A DNA stretch of 64,000 nt. Origin: Lysobacter antibioticus. GTDB taxonomy: Bacteria; Pseudomonadota; Gammaproteobacteria; Xanthomonadales; Xanthomonadaceae. The stretch covers positions 2,954,434-3,018,433 of the forward strand of contig NZ_CP013141.1 in the NCBI RefSeq assembly GCF_001442535.1, written 5' to 3'. Under the pieces are notes generated by a model, which searched no databases, was not told where the DNA came from, and was given only the letters and a program-made list of their open reading frames with translations. How positions within the stretch are numbered: the stretch's first letter is position 1; each line of letters begins with the position of its first letter. Shown in pieces: positions 49,998-60,698 of the stretch. The translations under genes and the position numbers were made by a program.

Positions 49998-51068
49998 TCA
50001 GCGCGAGCGCTGCGCCAACCAGTCGTGAATCGCCTGGGGCACTTCGCGCTGGGCACGGCCGGACACGTAGATGCCGATGTGGCCGCCGCGGAACGACAGC
50101 TCCGAGTAGTCCTGCGTACCGACCAGCTTGGCCAGCGCCCGCGATGCGGCCGGCGGCACCAGGTGGTCCTGCTCGGCGAAGATGTTCAGCACCGGCATGC
50201 CGATGTAGGCCAGATCGACCGCGCGACCGCCGATGTCGATGCCGCCGTTGACGAAGCCGTTGCCCTGGTAGAACTGCTTGATGAATTGGCGGAAGGCTTC
50301 GCCGGCCTGGTCGGGCGAGTCGAAGATCCACTTCTCCATGCGCAGGAAGTCCTCGAGCGCACGCTTGTCGTCGAGGATGTCGATCAGGCCGACGTACTTC
50401 TGCACGAACAAGCGCCACGGCTTCAAGGTGAGGTAGCACCAGTTCATGACGTCGGCCGGGACGTTGCCGAGGGTGTCGACGAACTGGTCGATGTCCAGGC
50501 CGCGGGTCCAGTTCGACAGCATGTTGTCGTCGGTGTGGAAATCCACCGGCGTGACCATGGTGATCAGGTTGCGCACCTTGCTGGGGTTCAAGGCCGAATA
50601 GCACAACGAGAACGCACCGCCCTGGCAGATGCCGAGCAGGTTGATCGCGTCCATGCGGTACTCGCGGCGCAGATGGTCGACCGCGCCGCCGAGGAAACGT
50701 TGAATGTAATCCTCGAGCTCGAGGTAGCGGTCGGAGCGGTCGGGATAACCCCAGTCCAGGATGTAGACGTCTTCGCCGCGTTCCAGCAGGCCGCGCACGA
50801 TCGACTTGTCGGCCTGCAGATCGACCATGTAGGGGCGATTGACCAGGGCGTAGGCGATCAGCAGCGGGACCTTCGCGGTCGGCGCCTTGTCGCCGCGGAA
50901 GCGATACAACACCACCTTGCCGTCGCGCCAGACTTCCTCGCGCTCGGTCGCGCCGTAGTCGATGTTGCCGACCTGGTGCAGCGAATCCAGGCCGGCGCGC
51001 AATTTGTTCTGCGCCTGCATCGCTTCCTGGGCCAGGGACTCGGCGCTGAAATTGATCGGTGAGGTCAT
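49998..51068 (-). CDS. phaC: PhaC, class III PHA synthase catalytic subunit
   Basis: 356 aa, the class III length. Lipase-like box LLGICQGGAFSL with the catalytic Cys at ~149; Asp and His in FAEQDHLVPP and FRGGHIGIYVSG. It polymerises hydroxyacyl-CoA into storage polyester and requires PhaE, whose gene ends 1 bp before it. Cytoplasmic, at granule surfaces. Confidence 0.93.
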   Translation of the reverse strand: MTSPINFSAESLAQEAMQAQNKLRAGLDSLHQVGNIDYGATEREEVWRDGKVVLYRFRGDKAPTAKVPLLIAYALVNRPYMVDLQADKSIVRGLLERGEDVYILDWGYPDRSDRYLELEDYIQRFLGGAVDHLRREYRMDAINLLGICQGGAFSLCYSALNPSKVRNLITMVTPVDFHTDDNMLSNWTRGLDIDQFVDTLGNVPADVMNWCYLTLKPWRLFVQKYVGLIDILDDKRALEDFLRMEKWIFDSPDQAGEAFRQFIKQFYQGNGFVNGGIDIGGRAVDLAYIGMPVLNIFAEQDHLVPPAASRALAKLVGTQDYSELSFRGGHIGIYVSGRAQREVPQAIHDWLAQRSR

Positions 51069-51069
51069 G

Positions 51070-52296
51070 TCAGCGCGCCTTCTGGCTGGTCTTGGCCGGC
51101 TTCACCGCGGCGGCGGCGCTGGGCCGGGTCGGCGGTTGCGGACGGGCGATCGCGGTCTTTTTCGCCAGCTTGGGCTTGCCCGGCGACACATCGCCCGACT
51201 TGCTGGCGGCGGCCGCCGCGGCCTGGGCCGCACGCGGCTTGACCGTTTTCTTCGCCGCGGGCTTGGCGGATTTCGCCGCTGATTTTGCCGCTGATTTCGA
51301 TGCGGGCTTCGCAACCGGCTGGGCCGGCGCACGCGGCGCTTCCGCGGCCCGGCGCGGTGCCTCGTTCGCGCTTACCGAGCGCGACTGCTGCACTTCGTCG
51401 CGCAGGCGGCGCAGCTCGCGTTCGAGTTGCGCGATCTTGCGGTGCGCGGCGTCGATCTCGGTGCGGGTCGGGATACCGAAGCCGCCGCTGGCCTGTTCGA
51501 CTTCCTTCTGCACGCCGGCGCGCAGACGCATCTGCGAATTCACCAGGGCCGCATAGGCATCGCGGAACCGCGGCGACAAGGCGATTTGCGCATAGGCCTC
51601 CTCGGCCGCGTCGATCCACAGATCGAACAGCGCGCGTGCGCTGGAGAGTTGGCGACCCGGCTCGCTGCGCTCGGCCAGCTTGTCCTCGAAACGCGAGAAC
51701 GCGTCCTGGCCGGCTTCGGCCATCAAGGCGTTATAGGCCTGGCTTTGCTTCTGGTAATCGACGTGCGCCTGGGCCAGCGCCTGCAGGCGCTCCTGATGCT
51801 CGCGCGCAAAACCGAATGCGGGCAGGCCGAGGATCGATTGGCCCTGGCCTTGCAGGCGTTCGAGAAACGGCGCGACCTGCTCGACCCAGCGCGACAGGTC
51901 CTGCTGACCCGGGCCGCGCATGGCCCCGAACACGTCGGCGAAAGGATTGGCGGCATTGCCGCCGAGGGCCCGCTTCCAGGCCCCGGCGATGTCGCCGGCC
52001 GAGGCGTCGCTGCCGGCGAACTGCGCCGCCAGCTTCTGGATTTCGCCGAACCAGCCGCGCGCCTGGCTGTTGAAACGGTCCAGGGTTTCGTCGGCCTGCG
52101 GGCTCGCGCCCTTGGCCAGTTGCGACCACCAGTTCACGGCCTCGTTCCAACCCGGAACCGACGGCTGCGAGGGCTGCGCGCCGGCGCCGCGCATCATCTG
52201 CCCCCATGCGCTCCAGTACTGTCGCGCCAGAGCATCCAGATCGGGGCCGGCGCCGAAATCGCCGGGATTAGTCGAGCCGAAACCGAAATTCGCCAT
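51070..52296 (-). CDS. phaE: PhaE, class III PHA synthase subunit with basic Ala/Lys/Pro tail
   Basis: 408 aa from ATG 52296, which has GGAGG six bases upstream; ATG 52308 would include that site in the coding region. Residues ~1-300 are the PhaE domain (DLDALARQYWSAWGQMM; YNALMAEAGQDAFSRFEDKL; YAALVNSQMRLRAGVQKEVE), ending in a coiled coil (IDAAHRKIAQLERELRRLRDEVQQ). The last ~92 residues are Ala, Lys, Pro-rich with KSAAKSAAKSAKPAAKK, like the tails of histone H1-like proteins and PhaF-type phasins. Confidence 0.9.
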   Translation of the reverse strand: MANFGFGSTNPGDFGAGPDLDALARQYWSAWGQMMRGAGAQPSQPSVPGWNEAVNWWSQLAKGASPQADETLDRFNSQARGWFGEIQKLAAQFAGSDASAGDIAGAWKRALGGNAANPFADVFGAMRGPGQQDLSRWVEQVAPFLERLQGQGQSILGLPAFGFAREHQERLQALAQAHVDYQKQSQAYNALMAEAGQDAFSRFEDKLAERSEPGRQLSSARALFDLWIDAAEEAYAQIALSPRFRDAYAALVNSQMRLRAGVQKEVEQASGGFGIPTRTEIDAAHRKIAQLERELRRLRDEVQQSRSVSANEAPRRAAEAPRAPAQPVAKPASKSAAKSAAKSAKPAAKKTVKPRAAQAAAAAASKSGDVSPGKPKLAKKTAIARPQPPTRPSAAAAVKPAKTSQKAR

Positions 52297-52489
52297 CGCC
52301 GCCTCCATGATTTGATCCGATCATAGCAACGGCCTGTTGCCGCGCGCTGTGTCGGCAGCACCGCCACGCGATGGCGGCCGATCGATGCACCGACGATGTG
52401 TCGGCCGCCTCGATGCGCAAACTGCGCGCGGCTACGCGGTCGGCCCGGGCTTGGGTATGCTTGCGGCACATTCAGGCAAGGAGCCACTC

Positions 52490-53401
52490 GTGGCCATTGG
52501 CGAGTATTCGCAGATCTACCGCGGCAAGCGCATCGTGAACTTCAGCATGGGCGAGACGCCCGCCGGCGGCGACGTCGTCTACCGCCTGCACCAGGACTAC
52601 GACAGCGCCGAAAGCCAGGGCGATCTGCTCGGCAGTCTGCTGTCGCAGGTCGACCCGGGCACGCTCGATGCGCTGGTCGTCGGCCCCTGGAGCGAAGCGC
52701 ACGACGAAAGCCCCTCGGGCTATCTCGACCTGTTGATCGAACGCCGCGCCGAACTGCCCGCGCTCAAAGGCCTGTTCGTCGGCGACATGACTTACGAAGA
52801 CTGCGAAATCTCCTGGATCATCCAGACCTCGTACAACGCCCTGCTCGCCGCCTACCCGACGCTGGAGTCCCTGCGCATCCGCGGTTCCAGCAGTCTGGAA
52901 CTGCAGGCCTTCGAGCATGAGCATCTGCAGGAACTGGCGATCGAATGCGGCGGCCTGCCTTCGAAGATCGTCGACGCCCTCGCCGGCTCCAGGCTGCCGG
53001 CGCTGCACCATCTGGAACTGTGGCTCGGCGACGACAACTACGGCTACGACGGCGACCTGGCGACCTACCAGCGCCTGTTCACCGCGATCCAGCCCGAGCG
53101 CCTGCGCTACCTGGGCCTGCGCAACGCCAGCATCACCGACGAGCTCGCCGTATGGCTGGCCGCGCAGCCCTGGCTGGGCGGCTTGCAGACCCTCGACCTG
53201 TCGCTGGGCACCATCGGCGATGTCGGTGCGCAGGCCCTGTTCGAAAGCCCGAACCTCGGCGGCATCGAACGCATCAACCTGAGCCACCACTACATCTCGC
53301 CGGAATGGCAGAAAAAACTCGCCAGCCTGCCCTGCGAGGTCGTGCTCGACGAGCATGAAGACGAGGACGACGGCGAACGTTACGTCGCAGTCGCCGAGTA
53401 A
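52490..53401 (+). CDS. STM4015 family leucine-rich-repeat-like protein
   Basis: 303 aa from GTG 52490, which has AAGGAG at good spacing; the longer frame from 52337 overlaps the phaE promoter region. The N-terminus (YSQIYRGKRIVNFSMGETP) fits the STM4015 family as I know it. Irregular leucine-rich repeats follow (YPTLESLRIRGSSSLELQAF, LRYLGLRNASITDELAVWL, LQTLDLSLGTIGDVGAQAL), ending in an acidic tail (DEHEDEDDGE). Probably a binding or scaffold protein. First gene of a five-gene operon; the next gene starts 2 bp after its stop. Confidence 0.88.
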   Translation: MAIGEYSQIYRGKRIVNFSMGETPAGGDVVYRLHQDYDSAESQGDLLGSLLSQVDPGTLDALVVGPWSEAHDESPSGYLDLLIERRAELPALKGLFVGDMTYEDCEISWIIQTSYNALLAAYPTLESLRIRGSSSLELQAFEHEHLQELAIECGGLPSKIVDALAGSRLPALHHLELWLGDDNYGYDGDLATYQRLFTAIQPERLRYLGLRNASITDELAVWLAAQPWLGGLQTLDLSLGTIGDVGAQALFESPNLGGIERINLSHHYISPEWQKKLASLPCEVVLDEHEDEDDGERYVAVAE

Positions 53402-53403
53402 CC

Positions 53404-54546
53404 GTGTCCGCCGCCCCCTGGCTGTTGTTCGGCCCGCACGACAGCCGCCGGGTCCGGGGGTTGCAGCAGGCCCTGCGCGAGCGCGGCCTGCCTGCGGCCG
53501 AGGTCGTCGACTACCAGAGCCTGCTGAGCGCACCGGAACGCGCCGCCGAGGCGATCGCCGGCCGTCGCGGCGCGATGGTCAAGCTGGAATCGCCCGGCGA
53601 AGCGCCGGCCCTGCACGCCGCCCTGATCGAACGCGGCTGGCATCGGCTCGGCGCGCCGTGTCCGGCACCGCAGCCGCTCGAACATGGCGAGCTCGCCTAC
53701 CAGCAGTACTGGTACGCCGGCTTCGCCGATCTGCTGCGCTCGCTGCCGGCCGAGGCCGCTTATCTCAATCCGCCCGACGACATCGCCTGCATGAGCGACA
53801 AGCTGGCCTGCCAGCAACGCCTGATTGCGGCCGGGATCGAAGTGCCGCCGCTGCTCGGCCCGGTCGAAGGCTATGAAGCTCTGCGCGAACGCTTGCGCGA
53901 CTGCGCCTGCGATCAGGTTTTCGTCAAGGCGCGCTACGGTTCCTCGGGCGCCGGCGTGCTGGCGTATCGGCGCAACCGCGTCGGCCGCGAGATCGCCTAC
54001 GGCTCGGCCGAATTGGTCGAAAGCGACGGACGGGCACGCGTGTTCAACTCGCTGCGTCCGCGCCGCTACACCGCCACCGGCGAGATCGCCCGCCTCGTCG
54101 ACACCCTGGCCGCGCAAGGCGCCTACCTCGAGCGTTGGATACCGAAACCGCGCGCGCCCGATGCCCTCGGCGGCCACTACGACCTGCGCGTGGTCGCCCT
54201 GGACGGCCAGGCGCGGCAACGCGTCGCCCGGGTCAGCCGAAGGCCGCTGACCAATCTGCACCTGGGCAATCGCCGCGGCGCGCTGGAAGCCTGGCTCGAC
54301 ACGGACTCGATGCAGGCGCTCGAAGCCGCCACCAAACGTGCCGCCAGCGTGTTCCCGCGCAGCCGCATGATCGGCTTCGACCTGATCCTGCGCGACCGCC
54401 GCAGTTGGCTGCTCGAAGCCAATGCCTTCGGCGATCTGCTTCCTAACTTGCTGTGGCAGGGTCGCGGCACGTACGACGATCAAGCCGCACTGACGCCCTC
54501 GCCGCAAGCCACGACCGGCCCGCAACGAAGCCTCGCCCATGCCTGA
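53404..54546 (+). CDS. STM4014 family ATP-grasp-like protein
   Basis: 380 aa, GTG start at 53404. ATP-grasp features: CMSDKLACQQRLIAAGIEVP (start of the central domain), FVKARYGSSGAGVLAYRR (nucleotide-binding lysine), YDLRVVALDG, and the Mg-site FDLILRDRRSWLLEANAFGDLLP. ATP-grasp enzymes join a carboxylate to an amine or thiol by way of an acyl phosphate. Together with two radical SAM enzymes it suggests a peptide or small-molecule modification pathway. Overlaps the next gene by 8 bp. Confidence 0.88.
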   Translation: MSAAPWLLFGPHDSRRVRGLQQALRERGLPAAEVVDYQSLLSAPERAAEAIAGRRGAMVKLESPGEAPALHAALIERGWHRLGAPCPAPQPLEHGELAYQQYWYAGFADLLRSLPAEAAYLNPPDDIACMSDKLACQQRLIAAGIEVPPLLGPVEGYEALRERLRDCACDQVFVKARYGSSGAGVLAYRRNRVGREIAYGSAELVESDGRARVFNSLRPRRYTATGEIARLVDTLAAQGAYLERWIPKPRAPDALGGHYDLRVVALDGQARQRVARVSRRPLTNLHLGNRRGALEAWLDTDSMQALEAATKRAASVFPRSRMIGFDLILRDRRSWLLEANAFGDLLPNLLWQGRGTYDDQAALTPSPQATTGPQRSLAHA

Positions 54547-55357
54547 TGCCCTGCCCGACATGCGCGCCATCGTCGGCGATCACGACCTGGTCCTGATCAC
54601 CCTCGATACCCTGCGCTACGACGCCGCGCAGGCCTGTTTCGAACGCGGCGAACTGCCGGTGCTCGGGCCGCACTTGCCGCCGGAAGGCTGGGAGCGCCGG
54701 CACACGCCCGGCAGCTTCACCTATGCCGCTCACGCAGCGTTCTTCGCCGGCTTCCTGCCCACACCGGCCTCGCCCGGCCCGCATCCGCGTTTGTTCGCGC
54801 TCGACTTCGAAGGCAGCGAAACCACCGCCGCCAACACCTACGTGTTCCGCGACCGCGCCGACATCGTCTCCGGCCTGCGCGATGCCGGCTATCGCACCAT
54901 CTGCATCGGCGGGGTCGGCTTCTTCAACAAGCGCAACCCGCTCGGTTCGCAACTGCCGGGCTTGTTCGACGAGAGCCACTGGGAACCGGGCTTCGGCGTC
55001 ACCGCGGTCGATTCCACCGAGCGCCAGGTCGCCCTGGCCTGCGCACGCCTGCGCAGCGAGGAACTGCGCGATACGCGTTGCTTCATCTTCATCAACGTCT
55101 CCGCCCTGCACCAGCCCAATCGCCACTACCTCGCCGGCGCCGAGCACGACGGCTACGACAGCCATTGCGCAGCCCTGCGCTACGTCGACGCCGCGCTCGC
55201 GCCCTTGTTCGCCGCCTTGCGCGAACGCGGACGCGCCTTCGTCATCGCCTGTTCCGACCACGGCACCGCCTACGGCGAGGACGGCTACCACGGCCACCGC
55301 CTCGCCCACGAAGTGGTGATGACCGTGCCCTACGCGCATTTCATACTCACGCCATGA
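54539..55357 (+). CDS. STM4013 family alkaline-phosphatase-superfamily hydrolase
   Basis: 272 aa. Metal-site motifs of the sulfatase/phosphatase superfamily: LITLDTLRYDAA (Asp23), the nucleophile region TPGSFTYAAHAAFF, and SDHGTAYGEDGYHGHRLAHE with Asp/His ligands. It should hydrolyse or transfer a phosphate or sulfate ester, or act as a phosphopentomutase-like isomerase. No signal peptide, so cytoplasmic. It overlaps STM4014 (8 bp) and STM4012 (4 bp). Confidence 0.88.
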   Translation: MPDALPDMRAIVGDHDLVLITLDTLRYDAAQACFERGELPVLGPHLPPEGWERRHTPGSFTYAAHAAFFAGFLPTPASPGPHPRLFALDFEGSETTAANTYVFRDRADIVSGLRDAGYRTICIGGVGFFNKRNPLGSQLPGLFDESHWEPGFGVTAVDSTERQVALACARLRSEELRDTRCFIFINVSALHQPNRHYLAGAEHDGYDSHCAALRYVDAALAPLFAALRERGRAFVIACSDHGTAYGEDGYHGHRLAHEVVMTVPYAHFILTP

Positions 55358-56727
55358 CCGCTGCCCTTGCTTCGCCCGGCCTCGCCGACCTGCTGCGCCT
55401 GCCTCCGTACCAGGCGTATTCGTATTCCTATCCGCACAAGACCGCGTATCGGCCGATCGAACCGGCGCAGCCTTTGGCGAAACTCTGGGCCGGCGAACGC
55501 CGCGATGCGCTGTTCCTGTATCTGCACATCCCGTTTTGCTCGTACCGCTGCGGCTTCTGCAATCTGTTCGCGCTGGCGCGGCCGGAACCGGCCAAGGTCG
55601 AGCGCTATCTGCAACAGATGGAACGGCAGCTGCAGGCCACCACGCAGGCCCTCGGCGATCACCGTTTCGTACGTTTCGCGCTCGGCGGCGGCACCCCGAC
55701 CTACCTCGACGCCGAGCAATTGCGGCGCGTGTTCGCGATGGCCGAGCGCTACGCCTCGATCGACTTGAAAGCCACGCCGGCCGGCATCGAGGTGTCGCCG
55801 GAAACCGTCGACGCCGACAAGCTGCGGGTCTGCCGCGAAGCCGGCATCGACCGCGTCAGCATGGGCATCCAGAGCTTCAGCGACGCCGAGGTGCGCTCGC
55901 TGGTGCGGCCGCAACAGCGCGAGGTGGTCGAGCGCGCGATCGCGACGATCCGCGCCGAGGCCTTCCCGATCCTCAATCTCGACCTGATCTACGGCATCGC
56001 CGGGCAGACGGTGACGAGTTTTCTCGCCTCGATCGACAGCGCCCTGACGCACGGGCCCGAAGAGATTTATCTGTATCCGCTGTATGTGCGGCCGTTGACC
56101 GGCCTGGGCCGGATCGAAGCCAAGGCCGGCGCCAAGCCCGGGTTCGCCCTGCAAGCCGAACCGATGGACACGCGCCTGGCCCTGTACGAAGCCGGCCGCG
56201 ACCATCTGCTCGCGGCCGGCTACACCCAGGTTTCGATGCGCATGTTCCGTGCGCCGCATTCGCCGGACATCGCCGCGCCGGTCTATTGCTGCCAGAGCGA
56301 CGGCATGGTCGGGGTCGGCTGCGGTGCGCGTTCGTACACCGGCACCCTGCATTACTCCAGCGAGTACGGTGTCGCCCGCCGCAGCGTGGCCGAGATCCTC
56401 GATCACTATCTGGCCCGCGACCCGGCCTCGTTCGCCTATGCCGACTACGGCATCGAGCTCGACGACGACGAACGCCGGCGCCGCCACGTCATCCAGTCCC
56501 TGCTGATCCGCCCGGGCCTGGATCGCGACGACTACCGCCGCCGTTTCGGCGCCGACTGCCTCGACGATTTGCCGCAGCTGCGCGACCTGCTCGCACTCGA
56601 CTTGGCCCAAGGCGACGAGGGGATGCTCGCCCTGACCGACGCCGGCCTCGCCCGCGCCGACACCATCGGCCCGTGGCTGACCTCGGCGCGCATCGCCGAG
56701 CGCATGCACGACTACCGCCTCGGCTGA
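55354..56727 (+). CDS. STM4012 family radical SAM protein (HemN-like)
   Basis: 457 aa from ATG 55354 (ATGA overlap with the previous gene). Radical SAM cluster C62-SYR-C66-GF-C69 within YLHIPFCSYRCGFCNL, followed by ALGGGTPTYL and IGIQSFSD-like MGIQSFSDAEVRSL, as in coproporphyrinogen dehydrogenase HemN. The C-terminal winged region is also HemN-like. True HemN genes do not sit in such operons, so the family probably acts on another substrate. Confidence 0.9.
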   Translation: MTAALASPGLADLLRLPPYQAYSYSYPHKTAYRPIEPAQPLAKLWAGERRDALFLYLHIPFCSYRCGFCNLFALARPEPAKVERYLQQMERQLQATTQALGDHRFVRFALGGGTPTYLDAEQLRRVFAMAERYASIDLKATPAGIEVSPETVDADKLRVCREAGIDRVSMGIQSFSDAEVRSLVRPQQREVVERAIATIRAEAFPILNLDLIYGIAGQTVTSFLASIDSALTHGPEEIYLYPLYVRPLTGLGRIEAKAGAKPGFALQAEPMDTRLALYEAGRDHLLAAGYTQVSMRMFRAPHSPDIAAPVYCCQSDGMVGVGCGARSYTGTLHYSSEYGVARRSVAEILDHYLARDPASFAYADYGIELDDDERRRRHVIQSLLIRPGLDRDDYRRRFGADCLDDLPQLRDLLALDLAQGDEGMLALTDAGLARADTIGPWLTSARIAERMHDYRLG

Positions 56728-56731
56728 GCGC

Positions 56732-57586
56732 ATGCACCTGTCCCTGCTCTATCGCGGCCGGCTCAGCAGTTGCAACTACGAGTGCGCCTACTGCCCGTTC
56801 GCGAAGACCTACGACAGCCGCGCCGCCCTGCGTCGCGACGCCGACGACCTGGCGCGTTTCGTCGATTGGGCGACCCAGCAGCGGATGGATCTGTCGATCC
56901 TGTTCACGCCCTGGGGCGAAGGCCTGGTGCGCCGTCACTACCGCGACGCGATGACTCGCCTGAGCCACCTGCCGCAGGTACGCCGGGTCGCGATCCAGAC
57001 CAACCTGTGCGTCGGCATGCGCTGGCTCGACGAGGTCGATACCCGCACGCTCGCCCTGTGGTGCACCTACCACCCGACCCAGGTCAGCCGCGCCGCCTTC
57101 CTCGCCCGCTGTCGCGAACTGACGCGCCGCGGCGTGCGCCACAGCGTCGGCATGGTCGCGCTGCACGAGCACCTGGACGAGATCGAGGCACTGCGCGCCG
57201 AGCTGCCGGCGCACACGCCGCTATGGCTCAACGCCTACGACGAACGGCCGCCGGGTTATTACGAGGATGCACGGATCGAACGCCTGCAGCGCATCGACCC
57301 GCATTTCCGCTACAACCTCGACCCCGCGCCGAGCCTGGGCGCGCCCTGCCTGACCGGCGAGAACGTGGTCTCGGTCGATGGCGACGGCAACGTCAAGCGC
57401 TGCCACTTCGTCGCCGAACCGCTCGGCAACCTCTATGACGGCAGCTACGCCGCACAGCTGCGCGCCCGCACCTGCCCCAACTCGCGTTGCGACTGCTACA
57501 TCGGCTACGCCCATCGCCCGGACCTGCCGTTCCAGCGCGACTACGCCGGCGGCGTACTGGAACGGGTGCCGTCGTTCGTCCTATGA
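56732..57586 (+). CDS. STM4011 family radical SAM protein
   Basis: 284 aa. Radical SAM cluster C14-NYE-C18-AY-C21 at the very N-terminus (SCNYECAYCPFAK). The C-terminal part has CHFVAEPLGNLYDG and CPNSRCDCYIGYAH, a SPASM-like arrangement that may hold an auxiliary Fe-S cluster, as in peptide-modifying radical SAM enzymes. Starts 4 bp after STM4012; last gene of the operon. Confidence 0.9.
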   Translation: MHLSLLYRGRLSSCNYECAYCPFAKTYDSRAALRRDADDLARFVDWATQQRMDLSILFTPWGEGLVRRHYRDAMTRLSHLPQVRRVAIQTNLCVGMRWLDEVDTRTLALWCTYHPTQVSRAAFLARCRELTRRGVRHSVGMVALHEHLDEIEALRAELPAHTPLWLNAYDERPPGYYEDARIERLQRIDPHFRYNLDPAPSLGAPCLTGENVVSVDGDGNVKRCHFVAEPLGNLYDGSYAAQLRARTCPNSRCDCYIGYAHRPDLPFQRDYAGGVLERVPSFVL

Positions 57587-57675
57587 CTTCGGCGGGCCCG
57601 CATGCCCTGCCCGCCCCCGCCAGCCGGCCGCATCGAACCGGCGGACAGCCCTCTTACCACGCAAAGGATCGCTCC

Positions 57676-58425
57676 ATGTCCCGCACCCCTCTCCGTAATG
57701 CGCTGTTGGCCGCGCTGTTGATTCCGGCTGTGCTCGCGCCGGCCTTCGACCCGGCCTTCGCCGCCAAGCCGTCCAAGGCCGCCAAAGCCAAGACCCGGGC
57801 GCCCAAGATCACCATGAAGCCCGAGCAGGTCGCCGAGCTTTACGCGCGCGTCGCGCTGAGGCAGGACCTCGAAGCGGCGAAGCAACTCAACGCCTACTCC
57901 AAACCGCTGTACGCCAACAACGAAAACGCGTTCGACCTCGAGGGCCTGGCCGACACTGTCGGTCTGGAGCAGCAGTACGAAGGCTTTGCCGACGGCATTC
58001 TGGCGGACATGCCGAAGGTCGACAAAGCCAAGGCCAAGCCGGCCCTGTTCGCCGCGATCAAGCGGGTCAACCAACTGGCGGCCGACGCGCAATGCCGCGG
58101 CCTGTCGAACACCGAACAAGCGAACGAATACGTCAAGAACGGGCGGATCAGCGAGGTCGAACTCGAATGCACCGTGCCGGCGCTGAGCGCGCGCATGCAG
58201 GACGTGCTGGCGAAGAAGGGCAATCCGGCCAAGCTCAAGACCAAGAAATTGCTGGAAGGGCTGGCCGAGTTCGATCGCTTGCTCGATCAGGCCGGCAGCC
58301 GGGTGATTCCGGCCAAGATGACTTTGTATGCGCCGGGCAAGGGGCAGCCGTGGTCCACCGGCGGCTATAACGACATCATCGAGACCGTGCACAACGGCAT
58401 GTACGCCGAAGGCGCGGCCGATTAA
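57676..58425 (+). CDS. Exported protein of unknown function
   Basis: 249 aa from ATG 57676 with AAAGGATC upstream. Signal peptide MSRTPLRNALLAALLIPAV...AFA-AKPSK. The mature part is largely helical and Lys/Ala-rich, with two Cys (DAQCRGLS and LECTVPALS) and a C-terminus PGKGQPWSTGGYNDIIETVHNG. Not recognised. It lies 89 bp after STM4011 on the same strand, so it could belong to the same transcript, but the gap and start suggest its own control. Confidence 0.7.
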   Translation: MSRTPLRNALLAALLIPAVLAPAFDPAFAAKPSKAAKAKTRAPKITMKPEQVAELYARVALRQDLEAAKQLNAYSKPLYANNENAFDLEGLADTVGLEQQYEGFADGILADMPKVDKAKAKPALFAAIKRVNQLAADAQCRGLSNTEQANEYVKNGRISEVELECTVPALSARMQDVLAKKGNPAKLKTKKLLEGLAEFDRLLDQAGSRVIPAKMTLYAPGKGQPWSTGGYNDIIETVHNGMYAEGAAD

Positions 58426-58492
58426 GGCCGATCGAGGCTGATCGAGAAGTACCCGGAAGAGCGCCCGCGGCGGTGCAACGACTACATCGGCA

Positions 58493-58516
58493 ATGCGCGC
58501 GCCGCGGCGCGCGCAT
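58493..58516. repeat. Perfect 24-bp palindrome
   Basis: ATGCGCGCGCCG followed directly by its reverse complement, no loop. It lies in the gap after the exported-protein gene. Confidence 0.7.
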
Positions 58517-58543
58517 CCGCGCTGCGATCTCGTCGGCGCGCTT

Positions 58544-58569
58544 GCGATCTTCGCCTCGTCGAAGATCGC
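58544..58569. repeat. Perfect 10-bp hairpin
   Basis: Arms GCGATCTTCG and CGAAGATCGC with loop CCTCGT, 27 bp from the preceding palindrome. Confidence 0.65.
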
Positions 58570-58716
58570 GGCTCGACTCGCGCGCCGCGCGCGCGACGCA
58601 TCGCTGCGCATCGCAGGCCTTACGCGCTGCGCTCACAGAGCTTTGCAAGGAGACGCACGAAAGCGCAGCCGCGGACGCGGGCATGTCGGCGATTTTCGTT
58701 CATCGCGCGCAAGAAA

Positions 58717-58750
58717 ACACAGAAGGCCGCCTTTCGGCGGCCTTCTGTGT
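58717..58750 (-). terminator. Terminator of the tRNA-Ala/tRNA-Glu transcript
   Basis: 15-bp perfect stem ACACAGAAGGCCGCC/GGCGGCCTTCTGTGT with loop TTTC. On the minus strand the stem is followed by TTTTCTT, 5 bp after the tRNA-Glu 3' end. Confidence 0.8.
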
Positions 58751-58754
58751 TGTT

Positions 58755-58830
58755 TGGCGTCCCCACGGGGATTCGAACCCCGGTCGCTACCGTGAAAGGG
58801 TAATGTCCTAGGCCTCTAGACGATGGGGAC
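58755..58830 (-). tRNA. tRNA-Glu (TTC)
   Basis: 76 nt with encoded CCA. Acceptor GTCCCCA/TGGGGAC, anticodon loop CTTTCAC giving TTC, T-loop GGTTCGAATCC. Confidence 0.95.
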
Positions 58831-58885
58831 AAAACTTGTTGTTCTTGCAGCTAACTCGTCCGGAAACCCTTTCAGTTCCGAAGAG

Positions 58886-58961
<76 letters not shown>

Positions 58962-59006
58962 ACGTGCTGGAAAGACGAACATCTTAGCGGGCGTTCAGCG
59001 ATGTCG

Positions 59007-59543
59007 TCAAGCATTCATCGCTAAATTTTTTCCCGGTCCCGCGTCGCCTGGGCCGAATGGATCGGGCTGCGCGGGGTCGTGTTCGACCGGGCGCAATGTT
59101 GCCATGCCATGACCCCGTTCCGCTAGATACTCGAGCCACTTTCCTAAAAAAGTATTCATGCGCATGCGGTGGCCGATCACCTCCGCCGGCGGCGGGTACA
59201 TGCCGATGACGTCCTGCCAGCGCCGGCCGACATAGCAATGGGTGGCTTCGACCTGGTGCGCGTCGTGATACAGGCGCAGATACGCGGAAGGATCCGGCTC
59301 GCCGGTCAAGGGGTCCTGCAGCGCATACGTCAAGCGCATTTCGGTGGTGTAGCGGTGTTGCTCGATCACGTCCAGGCGCAGGTCGAGGCCGTCGCCGACG
59401 TCGGACAGGTACACGCCGCGTGCGAGTTCGGCCGGAGAAAACAGACGCGAAAGACGCTCGTGATTCTCCGCGTACAAGCCCATCAACCAACCGAAGCGGC
59501 TGAGTTTGGGGAGGCGCGCGAAGCGGGAGGCGGCGGTGCTCAT
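59007..59543 (-). CDS. DUF1249 family protein
   Basis: 178 aa from ATG 59543; the frame runs to 59627 but MSTAASRFARLPKLSRFGWLMGLYAENHERL is the natural family N-terminus. HRYTTEMRLTYAL and LRLYHDAHQVEATHCY match the DUF1249 (YqiB-like) family. Cytoplasmic, function unknown. Confidence 0.85.
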   Translation of the reverse strand: MSTAASRFARLPKLSRFGWLMGLYAENHERLSRLFSPAELARGVYLSDVGDGLDLRLDVIEQHRYTTEMRLTYALQDPLTGEPDPSAYLRLYHDAHQVEATHCYVGRRWQDVIGMYPPPAEVIGHRMRMNTFLGKWLEYLAERGHGMATLRPVEHDPAQPDPFGPGDAGPGKNLAMNA

Positions 59544-59876
59544 GTTCGCGATCCTACACGCCTTGCGCAGCGCGCGGCAGCATTGACGGAATGACGAAAA
59601 AGCCTTAATTTGTAGGCTCTTCGCCAAGGCGAACGAGATCGGGAAAAGGTTTGCTCAGCGAACCGCCCGGCGGCCTGCGAACCGCGGCCTCAGCCCGCGT
59701 CCCCACTCCCCGATTCATCTACCCCCTGCCCCGCACTCCTGGAGTGACTCCCTGCGCGAGTCGATCCGTGATTGCGTCTGCGAGCCATCGTCTCGCTGCC
59801 CTCCCGCAACGTTTTCAGCCCGCCCTGCTCCGGCATCACGCCTGCGCCGCACGCGGCGGCGCGGCGCACGGCGGCC

Positions 59877-60698
59877 TCAGAACATTTCGCGATGGATGCC
59901 CAGGGTGGTCAGCACCTTGCTCGAGATTTCCTCGATCGAGGTGTGGGTGGTGCTCAGCGTCGGGATGCGCTCGGCGCGGAACATCATCTCGGCCGCGGCG
60001 ACCTCGCGCTTGCAGGTTTCGAACTGGGCATAGCGCGAATTCGGCCGGCGTTCCTGGCGGATCTGCTGCAGCCGAATCGGGTCGATGGTCAGGCCGAACA
60101 GCTTGCTGCGGTAGGGCCGCAGGCGCGGCGGCAGGCGGTCGTGCTCGAGGTCTTCCTCGGTCAGCGGATAGTTGGCCGCGCGCACCCCGTAATGCAGCGC
60201 CAGATAAACGCAGGTCGGGGTCTTGCCGGCCCGCGACACCGCCACCAGGATCAGGTCGGCCTCGGCGTAATCGACGCTGGCCCCGTCGTCGTGGGTCAAG
60301 GCGAAATTCATCGCATTGATGCGGCGGTGATAGGTCTCGAAGTCGGCGATGCCGTGGGCCTGGCCGACCCGGCGCTGACGGGTCTCGTGCAGCTCGCGCT
60401 CCAGCGGTTCTATGAACGGCGCGAATACGTCCAGCATCAGGGCCCCGCTCTCGGCCAGGGCCGCGCCGACCTCCCCGTCCATGCAGGAATTGATCACCAC
60501 CGGCCGTACCCCGTGGACCACGGCGGCCTCGCGGATCTTGGCCGCCGCGTCCTGGGCGCGCTCGACGCTGTCCACGAAAGCGATGCGATCTGTGACGAAC
60601 CGGGTCTCGGTGAACTGGGTCAGCAAACTGTGACCGATGGTCTCGGCGGTGATGCCGGTACCGTCGGAAACGTAGAAAACCGGTCTTGTTCCTGCCAT
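59877..60698 (-). CDS. ppsR: PpsR, bifunctional regulator (kinase/phosphorylase) of PEP synthase
   Basis: 273 aa from ATG 60698. [25 protein letters not shown] is the DUF299 N-terminus and [28 protein letters not shown] the P-loop region. PpsR phosphorylates and dephosphorylates PEP synthase on a Thr near its catalytic His, in an ADP/Pi-dependent manner. It is divergent from ppsA, the standard arrangement. Confidence 0.95.

Follow-up and report, generated by a model that had tools for sequence, protein, structure and literature searches.

The window analysed here is a 64,000-nucleotide stretch of a 5.77-Mb single-contig Lysobacter antibioticus genome (NZ_CP013141.1, forward-strand positions 2,954,434 to 3,018,433), and it carries an operon of five genes belonging to the families STM4011 to STM4015. 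The genes are read as five consecutive + strand open reading frames (ORFs) at 52490-57586, in the order STM4015-STM4014-STM4013-STM4012-STM4011, with intergenic spacings of +2, -8, -4 and +4 base pairs (bp) and GTG start codons for the STM4015 and STM4014 ORFs. A first-pass annotation, made from the letters alone, had given the same five ORFs, gaps and overlaps. The features are as follows.

52490..53401, + strand: STM4015-family leucine-rich-repeat (LRR) protein, 303 amino acids (aa), proposed carrier (NF038076)
53348..53377, + strand: variable acidic linker of STM4015, D287-E296 (high entropy at positions -8 to -24)
53378..53398, + strand: conserved C-terminal tail of STM4015, RYVAVAE, R297-E303, with E303 the last residue (fixed end in homologues)
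53404..54546, + strand: STM4014-family ATP-grasp protein, 380 aa, proposed LysX/RimK-like ligase (NF038074)
54229..54276, + strand: STM4014 motif R276...T283-N284-L285-H286-L287...R291 (aligned to LysX RRSAHWITN)
54379..54423, + strand: STM4014 D326...E338-x-N340 (each in at least 83 of 84 sequences)
54539..55357, + strand: STM4013-family alkaline-phosphatase-superfamily hydrolase, 272 aa (NF038075, Pfam Sulfatase)
55354..56727, + strand: STM4012-family HemN-like radical S-adenosylmethionine (SAM) protein, 457 aa (NF006067)
55537..55560, + strand: STM4012 CxxxCxxC, C62-C66-C69 (translation and homologue alignment)
56732..57586, + strand: STM4011-family radical SAM protein with auxiliary Cys cluster, 284 aa (NF038073)
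56771..56794, + strand: STM4011 CxxxCxxC, C14-C18-C21 (12 of 12 aligned sequences)
57347..57496, + strand: STM4011 auxiliary SPASM/twitch-like cysteines C206, C224, C248, C253 and C255 (each in at least 90 of 91 sequences)

Families were assigned by NCBIfam curated cut-offs, one model per protein, and all five proteins are members: STM4015 scored 302.3 bits (cut-off 275), STM4014 336.6 (175), STM4013 394.2 (250), STM4012 587.6 (380) and STM4011 379.9 (200). These scores uphold the earlier call of an ATP-grasp enzyme, a hydrolase of the alkaline-phosphatase superfamily and a pair of radical SAM enzymes. The titles of the models are bare names and state no role. Pfam placed an ATP-grasp domain in STM4014 (33.5 bits, cut-off 31.4) and Sulfatase in STM4013 (29.9 bits, cut-off 25), and Radical_SAM matched two operon proteins, one at 66.1 bits and one at 28.1 bits, just below the cut-off of 29.5. 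For STM4015, LRR models were the sole Pfam matches at E up to 1, and marginal ones (22.0 bits, below the cut-off of 23.4). The closest STM4011 relative in a protein search was a Lysobacter sp. Hz 25 protein with 96% identity.

All five genes occur in the order 4015-4014-4013-4012-4011 in 82 of the 91 loci examined, which comprise the window, ten loci taken in from the 13 records with STM4011 in a plasmid collection, and 80 genome-contig loci, the best 80 of at least 590 relatives, so that distant lineages are under-sampled; ORF starts in these locus scans are approximate. The first-pass annotation had named inconsistent linkage as a way in which its pathway could fail, and the linkage proved consistent. 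Complete loci come from Pseudomonadota, Actinomycetota, Deinococcota, Bacillota and Planctomycetota, and 16 of the 82 carry a tandem doubling of STM4015. Five incomplete loci (L041, L050, L059, L070, L106) are short or cut contigs, and one from Bacteroidota (L021) is incomplete through an internal deletion. Loss of STM4014 was considered for three further loci and rejected: an Embleya locus (L028) has STM4014 and STM4013 in a single open frame (L028:5096-7390), and in the genomes of L076 and L092 STM4014 sits at a separate site. On the L021 record, a Bacteroides finegoldii plasmid, only remnants of STM4013 and STM4012 stand between STM4014 and an STM4011-HAD fusion, and STM4015 bears an N-terminal WGR domain. 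The distribution of the operon is patchy, with STM4011 over its cut-off in 3 of 274 genomes sampled from the window's class and 14 of 149 from its family (own genome included in both), and in 65 of 147 from a streptomycete-containing order. In this last sample both STM4011 and STM4015 exceed their cut-offs in 63 genomes, STM4011 alone in 2, STM4015 alone in 2 and neither in 80; here and below, co-occurrence figures are raw counts that ignore kinship.

STM4015 ends in a fixed C-terminal block, R-[Y/F]-[V/I/T]-A-[V/L/I]-[G/S/A]-E-COOH, preceded by the variable acidic linker. The terminal glutamate is present in 103 of 104 STM4015 ORFs of the first locus set, the single other ORF being a 151-bit LRR paralogue, and, once the first and two later sets are pooled, in 157 of the 162 proteins that score 280 bits or more, a count that leans to exceptions because locus set 2 was chosen partly for odd-looking members. 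Six matches below 280 bits, three of which end in E, were excluded from the pool. An R[YF]x4E end is found in 150 of the 162 and a [YF]x4E end in 153. Among 97 representatives the entropy is 0.17 bits at the last position, 0.41 at the arginine at -7 and 2.67-3.52 in the linker at -8 to -24, and the tail tyrosine is replaced by phenylalanine in 13. The pooled proteins without the glutamate are three alike copies ending GIGA, each second in transcription order in a tandem array of four, and a pair of similar copies ending VGPLTY, one of them the only over-cut-off STM4015 in a genome without an STM4011 match (G414) and the other an extra STM4015 in a genome with STM4011 (G394). Matches at 1e-30 were found in 12 of 392 sampled Planctomycetota genomes, 10 of them over the cut-off, and 12 of 14 loci from this phylum have an STM4015 with the terminal glutamate; L201 holds a copy with an in-frame stop, and L202 a 145-bit paralogue on an 8.9-kb contig that bears none of the other operon genes. 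The STM4011, STM4012, STM4013 and STM4014 proteins have no fixed C-terminal end.

STM4014 is an ATP-grasp enzyme, probably of the LysX/ArgX/RimK type. LysX/ArgX, tied with RimK, are its nearest kin both by sequence profile and by fold. R276 and T283-L287 of the motif that aligns with LysX are kept in at least 83 of 84 sequences and R291 in 82 of 84, and D326, E338 and N340 occupy what we take to be the usual ATP-grasp metal-site positions.

STM4015 and STM4014 form a separate unit in some genomes. In 5 of the 14 Planctomycetota loci (L190, L191, L192, L198, L203) they are encoded on the strand opposite to STM4013-4012-4011, and in L119 STM4014 stands with an STM4015 copy away from the remaining operon genes. 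Copy numbers differ as well: in the 147-genome sample, over-cut-off STM4015 copies reach six in one genome (G286) and five in two, and each STM4011-bearing genome has a single STM4011 match, except one with two partial pieces (G349). Extra tail-bearing STM4015 copies beside one STM4011 suggest several carriers served by one machinery. Nine satellite loci (L137, L139, L140, L141, L142, L143, L147, L148, L149) pair a tail-bearing STM4015 with a weak STM4014 relative, at 64-93 bits in six scores.

Taken as a whole, the operon may encode a carrier-protein pathway, a reading to which we give about an even chance, with STM4015 as carrier, STM4014 as ligase, radical SAM tailoring, and ester hydrolysis by STM4013. 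Directly observed are the set of genes and their order, the intact state of the catalytic residues, the fixed STM4015 tail, the kinship of the ATP-grasp enzyme, the STM4015-STM4014 unit that stands apart in some genomes, and multicopy STM4015 beside single-copy STM4011. We infer the rest, from the ligation and its acceptor through the radical chemistry to release and product: STM4015 would be a folded LRR carrier with a free, nearly invariant C-terminal glutamate as attachment point. STM4014 would spend ATP to couple an amine-bearing substrate onto this glutamate; STM4012 and STM4011 would then rework the tethered group, or the adjoining tail; and STM4013, in some bacteria together with a HAD phosphatase, would cut a phosphate or sulfate ester, either in processing or at release. 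The first-pass annotation had also proposed a biosynthetic pathway; its intact, linked operon and the enzyme classes named are upheld, while the role given to STM4015 and the claim of completeness are revised here. The invariant glutamate tail leads us to read STM4015 as a substrate carrier rather than the binding scaffold suggested before.

Several observations weigh against a carrier role. The tail appears to pack against the repeat domain instead of hanging free, because an AlphaFold2 model gives a predicted local distance difference test (pLDDT) score of 94 for residues 291-300 (75 for 301-303) and the alignment of the 2ra8 crystal extends to the final model residue. The fold leaves the STM4014 substrate unfixed, since Z values for LysX, RimK, glutathione synthetase (21.2), DcsG (20.6) and Ddl (20.3) are nearly equal. 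The five family-level STM4015 copies without the glutamate include four in STM4011-bearing genomes, and catalytic positions are changed in all three satellite STM4014 relatives read. STM4014 lies outside the operon in L076 and L092, and in one of these two genomes its surroundings of 15 kb hold no STM4015 (L118). Two genomes, G369 and G401, have STM4011 over the cut-off without an STM4015 match, and in G401 STM4011 and STM4012 remain with no STM4013-4015 found nearby; both operons look like remnants. Among the five genes there is no LysZ/LysY-like gene and no protease, and window STM4011 weakly matches MoaA (E 5.1e-4), whose substrate is a free small molecule.

The confidently placed tail and the reach of the 2ra8 alignment fit the main rival. 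Here the tail, packed on the repeat domain, would serve structure or docking: through it STM4015, as a scaffold or regulator without catalytic function, would dock to STM4014 or the radical enzymes, and the ATP-grasp substrate would be a free small molecule. The usual binding role of LRR proteins speaks for it too, as do the satellite loci, where ATP-grasp relatives with changed catalytic positions may only bind the tail. Packing alone, however, need not end at the same residue, and the same glutamate, in 157 of 162 proteins, and the fixed residue is the one used by LysX-type enzymes. The tail is also dispensable for the domain: the tail-less STM4015 copies of L129 and L130 retain the repeats (profile 34-344 and 35-343 of 353). 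We regard this rival as unlikely, though a substantial contender.

The two radical SAM proteins differ in kinship. By sequence, STM4012 belongs to the HemN-like group, with HemN 1olt (E 6.1e-27) and the methyltransferase NocN as its nearest solved sequences, and metabolic annotation has placed STM4012-type sequences (PRK08208) under a HemN/HemZ orthology number, according to a passage of PMC11964587. Identity with HemN (133.8 bits, cut-off 324.95) and with HemW (144.6 bits, cut-off 205.4) was rejected on NCBIfam cut-offs, so that by this measure STM4012 is not simply a coproporphyrinogen dehydrogenase, the case raised earlier as fatal to a dedicated pathway; unlike both enzymes, it is linked to this operon. 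In the window genome no match exceeds the HemN cut-off, and of the two below it one is STM4012. Both cysteine clusters named in the first-pass annotation are present in the translations: C66 and C69 of STM4012 are found in at least 88 of 89 sequences and C62 in 86 of 89, and C14-C18-C21 of STM4011 are invariant. The five auxiliary STM4011 cysteines are spaced C-x12-G-x4-C and CxxxxCxC, presumably part of a SPASM-like set, a full SPASM having seven. In STM4013, H191, D217, D240, H241, H253 and H257 are each kept in at least 87 of 88 sequences, a set that we take to resemble that of the alkaline-phosphatase superfamily. An anti-phage defence role was rejected, four of the five operon proteins having no PADLOC match; STM4012 matched PDC-M51A at 36.2 bits, a match confined to residues 123-245, which fall within its radical SAM part.

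The auxiliary cluster is one ground for a second rival, in which STM4015 is a very large precursor whose last seven residues, R-Y/F-x-A-V-x-E, form a core peptide, to be cross-linked by the radical SAM enzymes and then set free by a protease, as for pyrroloquinoline quinone. It would suit the shared [YF]x4E end, the multicopy state of STM4015 and the weak likeness of STM4011 to peptide maturases: SkfB for the window protein (E 0.17), and PapB (0.026) and the mycofactocin radical SAM enzyme (0.031) for the Bacteroides protein. These matches are weak, however, and window STM4011 is closer to MoaA; the tail tyrosine is phenylalanine in the 13 representatives noted above, the block is nearly invariant whereas the cores of many such peptides vary, and the operon lacks a protease gene. 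This makes the precursor explanation improbable. The flank search for a conserved short precursor-peptide ORF that the first-pass annotation had proposed came out negative, with none seen among 735 frames of 18-110 aa within 900 bp either side of 21 representative loci. Four matches at E<=1e-3 were listed in that scan: one frame inside DUF6745 (L023/L024), two Janthinobacterium-Massilia pairs, and one Janthinobacterium-window pair (E 4.8e-4) that joins an upstream frame to a downstream one.

The carrier reading has partial counterparts among known systems. LysW/ArgW with LysX/ArgX, and the vazabitide carrier Vzb22, likewise have a C-terminal glutamate on a folded, negatively charged carrier, and the LysX/ArgX ligases share the fold of STM4014 and, tied with RimK, are its nearest sequence kin. 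The substrate in such systems is held by an isopeptide bond to the gamma-carboxylate of the glutamate. LysW-type carriers are small, whereas the carrier here would be a leucine-rich protein of ~300 aa; at 303 aa it does not show that feature, and the operon is for this reason not filed under the amino-group carrier systems. It also has no kinase, reductase and aminotransferase set, and proposed radical SAM chemistry in its place. RimK shares the ATP-grasp fold and motif, and its acceptor is a protein C-terminal glutamate; its substrate, ribosomal protein S6, is no biosynthetic carrier, whereas the present operon continues with two radical SAM enzymes and a hydrolase. A RimK-like modification for its own sake, with STM4014 adding residues to the STM4015 C-terminus to control binding and the radical enzymes acting on another, unlinked substrate, would leave unexplained why 82 of 91 loci keep the hydrolase and both radical SAM enzymes linked in one constant order, and we consider it the least probable of the alternatives.

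Passages of PMC9303977 describe the amino-group carrier as a folded protein with a C-terminal extension ending in glutamate, and also describe pearlins, in which a carrier peptide and a peptide aminoacyl-tRNA ligase (PEARL) build 3-thiaglutamate or 3-thiahomoleucine at the C-terminus of a ribosomal carrier with subsequent tailoring, by a radical SAM enzyme in the tmo pathway. The proposed building at a carrier C-terminus with later tailoring resembles pearlins; unlike them, the five genes include no PEARL or protease, the ligase is of the ATP-grasp type, and the carrier would be large and folded. Graspetides (PsnB, MdnB/C) also use an ATP-grasp ligase, and PsnB is the top Foldseek match of STM4014, but no short precursor was seen here and two radical SAM enzymes are present. 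A passage of PMC10452190 treats ArgX and LysX as structurally similar to the ATP-grasp ligases of ribosomally synthesized and post-translationally modified peptides.

The five families are widespread, yet named only by Salmonella locus numbers. No published function for STM4011-STM4015 was found in the open-licence PubMed Central (PMC) literature, in agreement with the first-pass statement that no assigned product was known: STM4012 and DUF6745 had no mention there, and the passages that name STM4011, STM4013, STM4014, STM4015 or SEN3800 are table mentions. The gene families already had names, and the papers searched mentioned neither the proposed carrier role nor the tail of STM4015, nor the split into two modules or the association with DUF6745. 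The operon could represent a new class of carrier-protein biosynthesis, somewhat less probable than the carrier pathway itself, in which an LRR protein holds a growing molecule by an amide on its C-terminal glutamate and two radical SAM enzymes remodel it, spread over at least five phyla and including DUF6745 and a ~100-aa protein as further members. If so, a metabolite would be built in a new way, by radical SAM chemistry carried out on a folded LRR carrier. A defined acceptor residue turns an unknown pathway into a mass-spectrometry question about one protein.

DUF6745 (PF20530) and the ~100-aa protein are part of the same system in many lineages. Both adjoin the operon in 39 of the 91 loci, from Actinomycetota, Deinococcus, Methylobacterium and one Gemmataceae genome, and neither was found within the flanks examined beside Gamma- and Betaproteobacteria operons. 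Among the 147 genomes of the streptomycete-containing order, 61 have a DUF6745 match, 60 of these with some STM4011 match, and DUF6745 occurs in 1 of the 78 genomes without one; at both cut-offs, 57 genomes have the two together, 8 STM4011 only and 3 DUF6745 only. The window genome gave no DUF6745 match in a search in which 14 controls were also matchless, though the model matched in those 61 genomes. STM4011 overlaps with a gene for a HAD-IIB hydrolase on one Salmonella plasmid record, and the two are fused in the Bacteroides plasmid. The operon had been called complete: its five genes are intact, and DUF6745, the ~100-aa protein and a HAD phosphatase are added in other lineages or loci.

DUF6745 proteins also end at a fixed place in 39 loci (L023, L024, L025, L026, L027, L029 and others), with Y at -7 (39/39), P at -5 (38/39), Q/E at -2 (39/39) and T/A at -1 (39/39); Y and Q/E stand as far apart as Y and E do in the STM4015 tail, and one further residue follows. 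The ~100-aa partner (GEVTGHxH...HEEH...QREYxP; L023:10891-11187, L026:3115-3441) matches phrog_27831, a phage family of unknown function.

Around the window operon, two divergent - strand ORFs lie upstream of STM4015 (49998-52308), which we take to resemble class III polyhydroxyalkanoate synthase PhaC/PhaE, and two - strand tRNA genes lie downstream (58758-58830 and 58889-58961); an RNA family search of 50000-60000 found these two tRNAs and nothing else. Inspection by eye of the upstream regions of 16 Xanthomonadales and relatives showed no conserved motif beyond a ribosome-binding-like stretch. The Salmonella operon had no match in E. coli genomes by megablast, the one method used, and no operon relative was found in a viral contig collection. 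By tblastn, 37 phage-collection records match STM4012; the best two among the matches listed, OR850900.1 and AFYI01000005.1, are Salmonella-named phage records with STM4012 relatives, perhaps carried-over host DNA.

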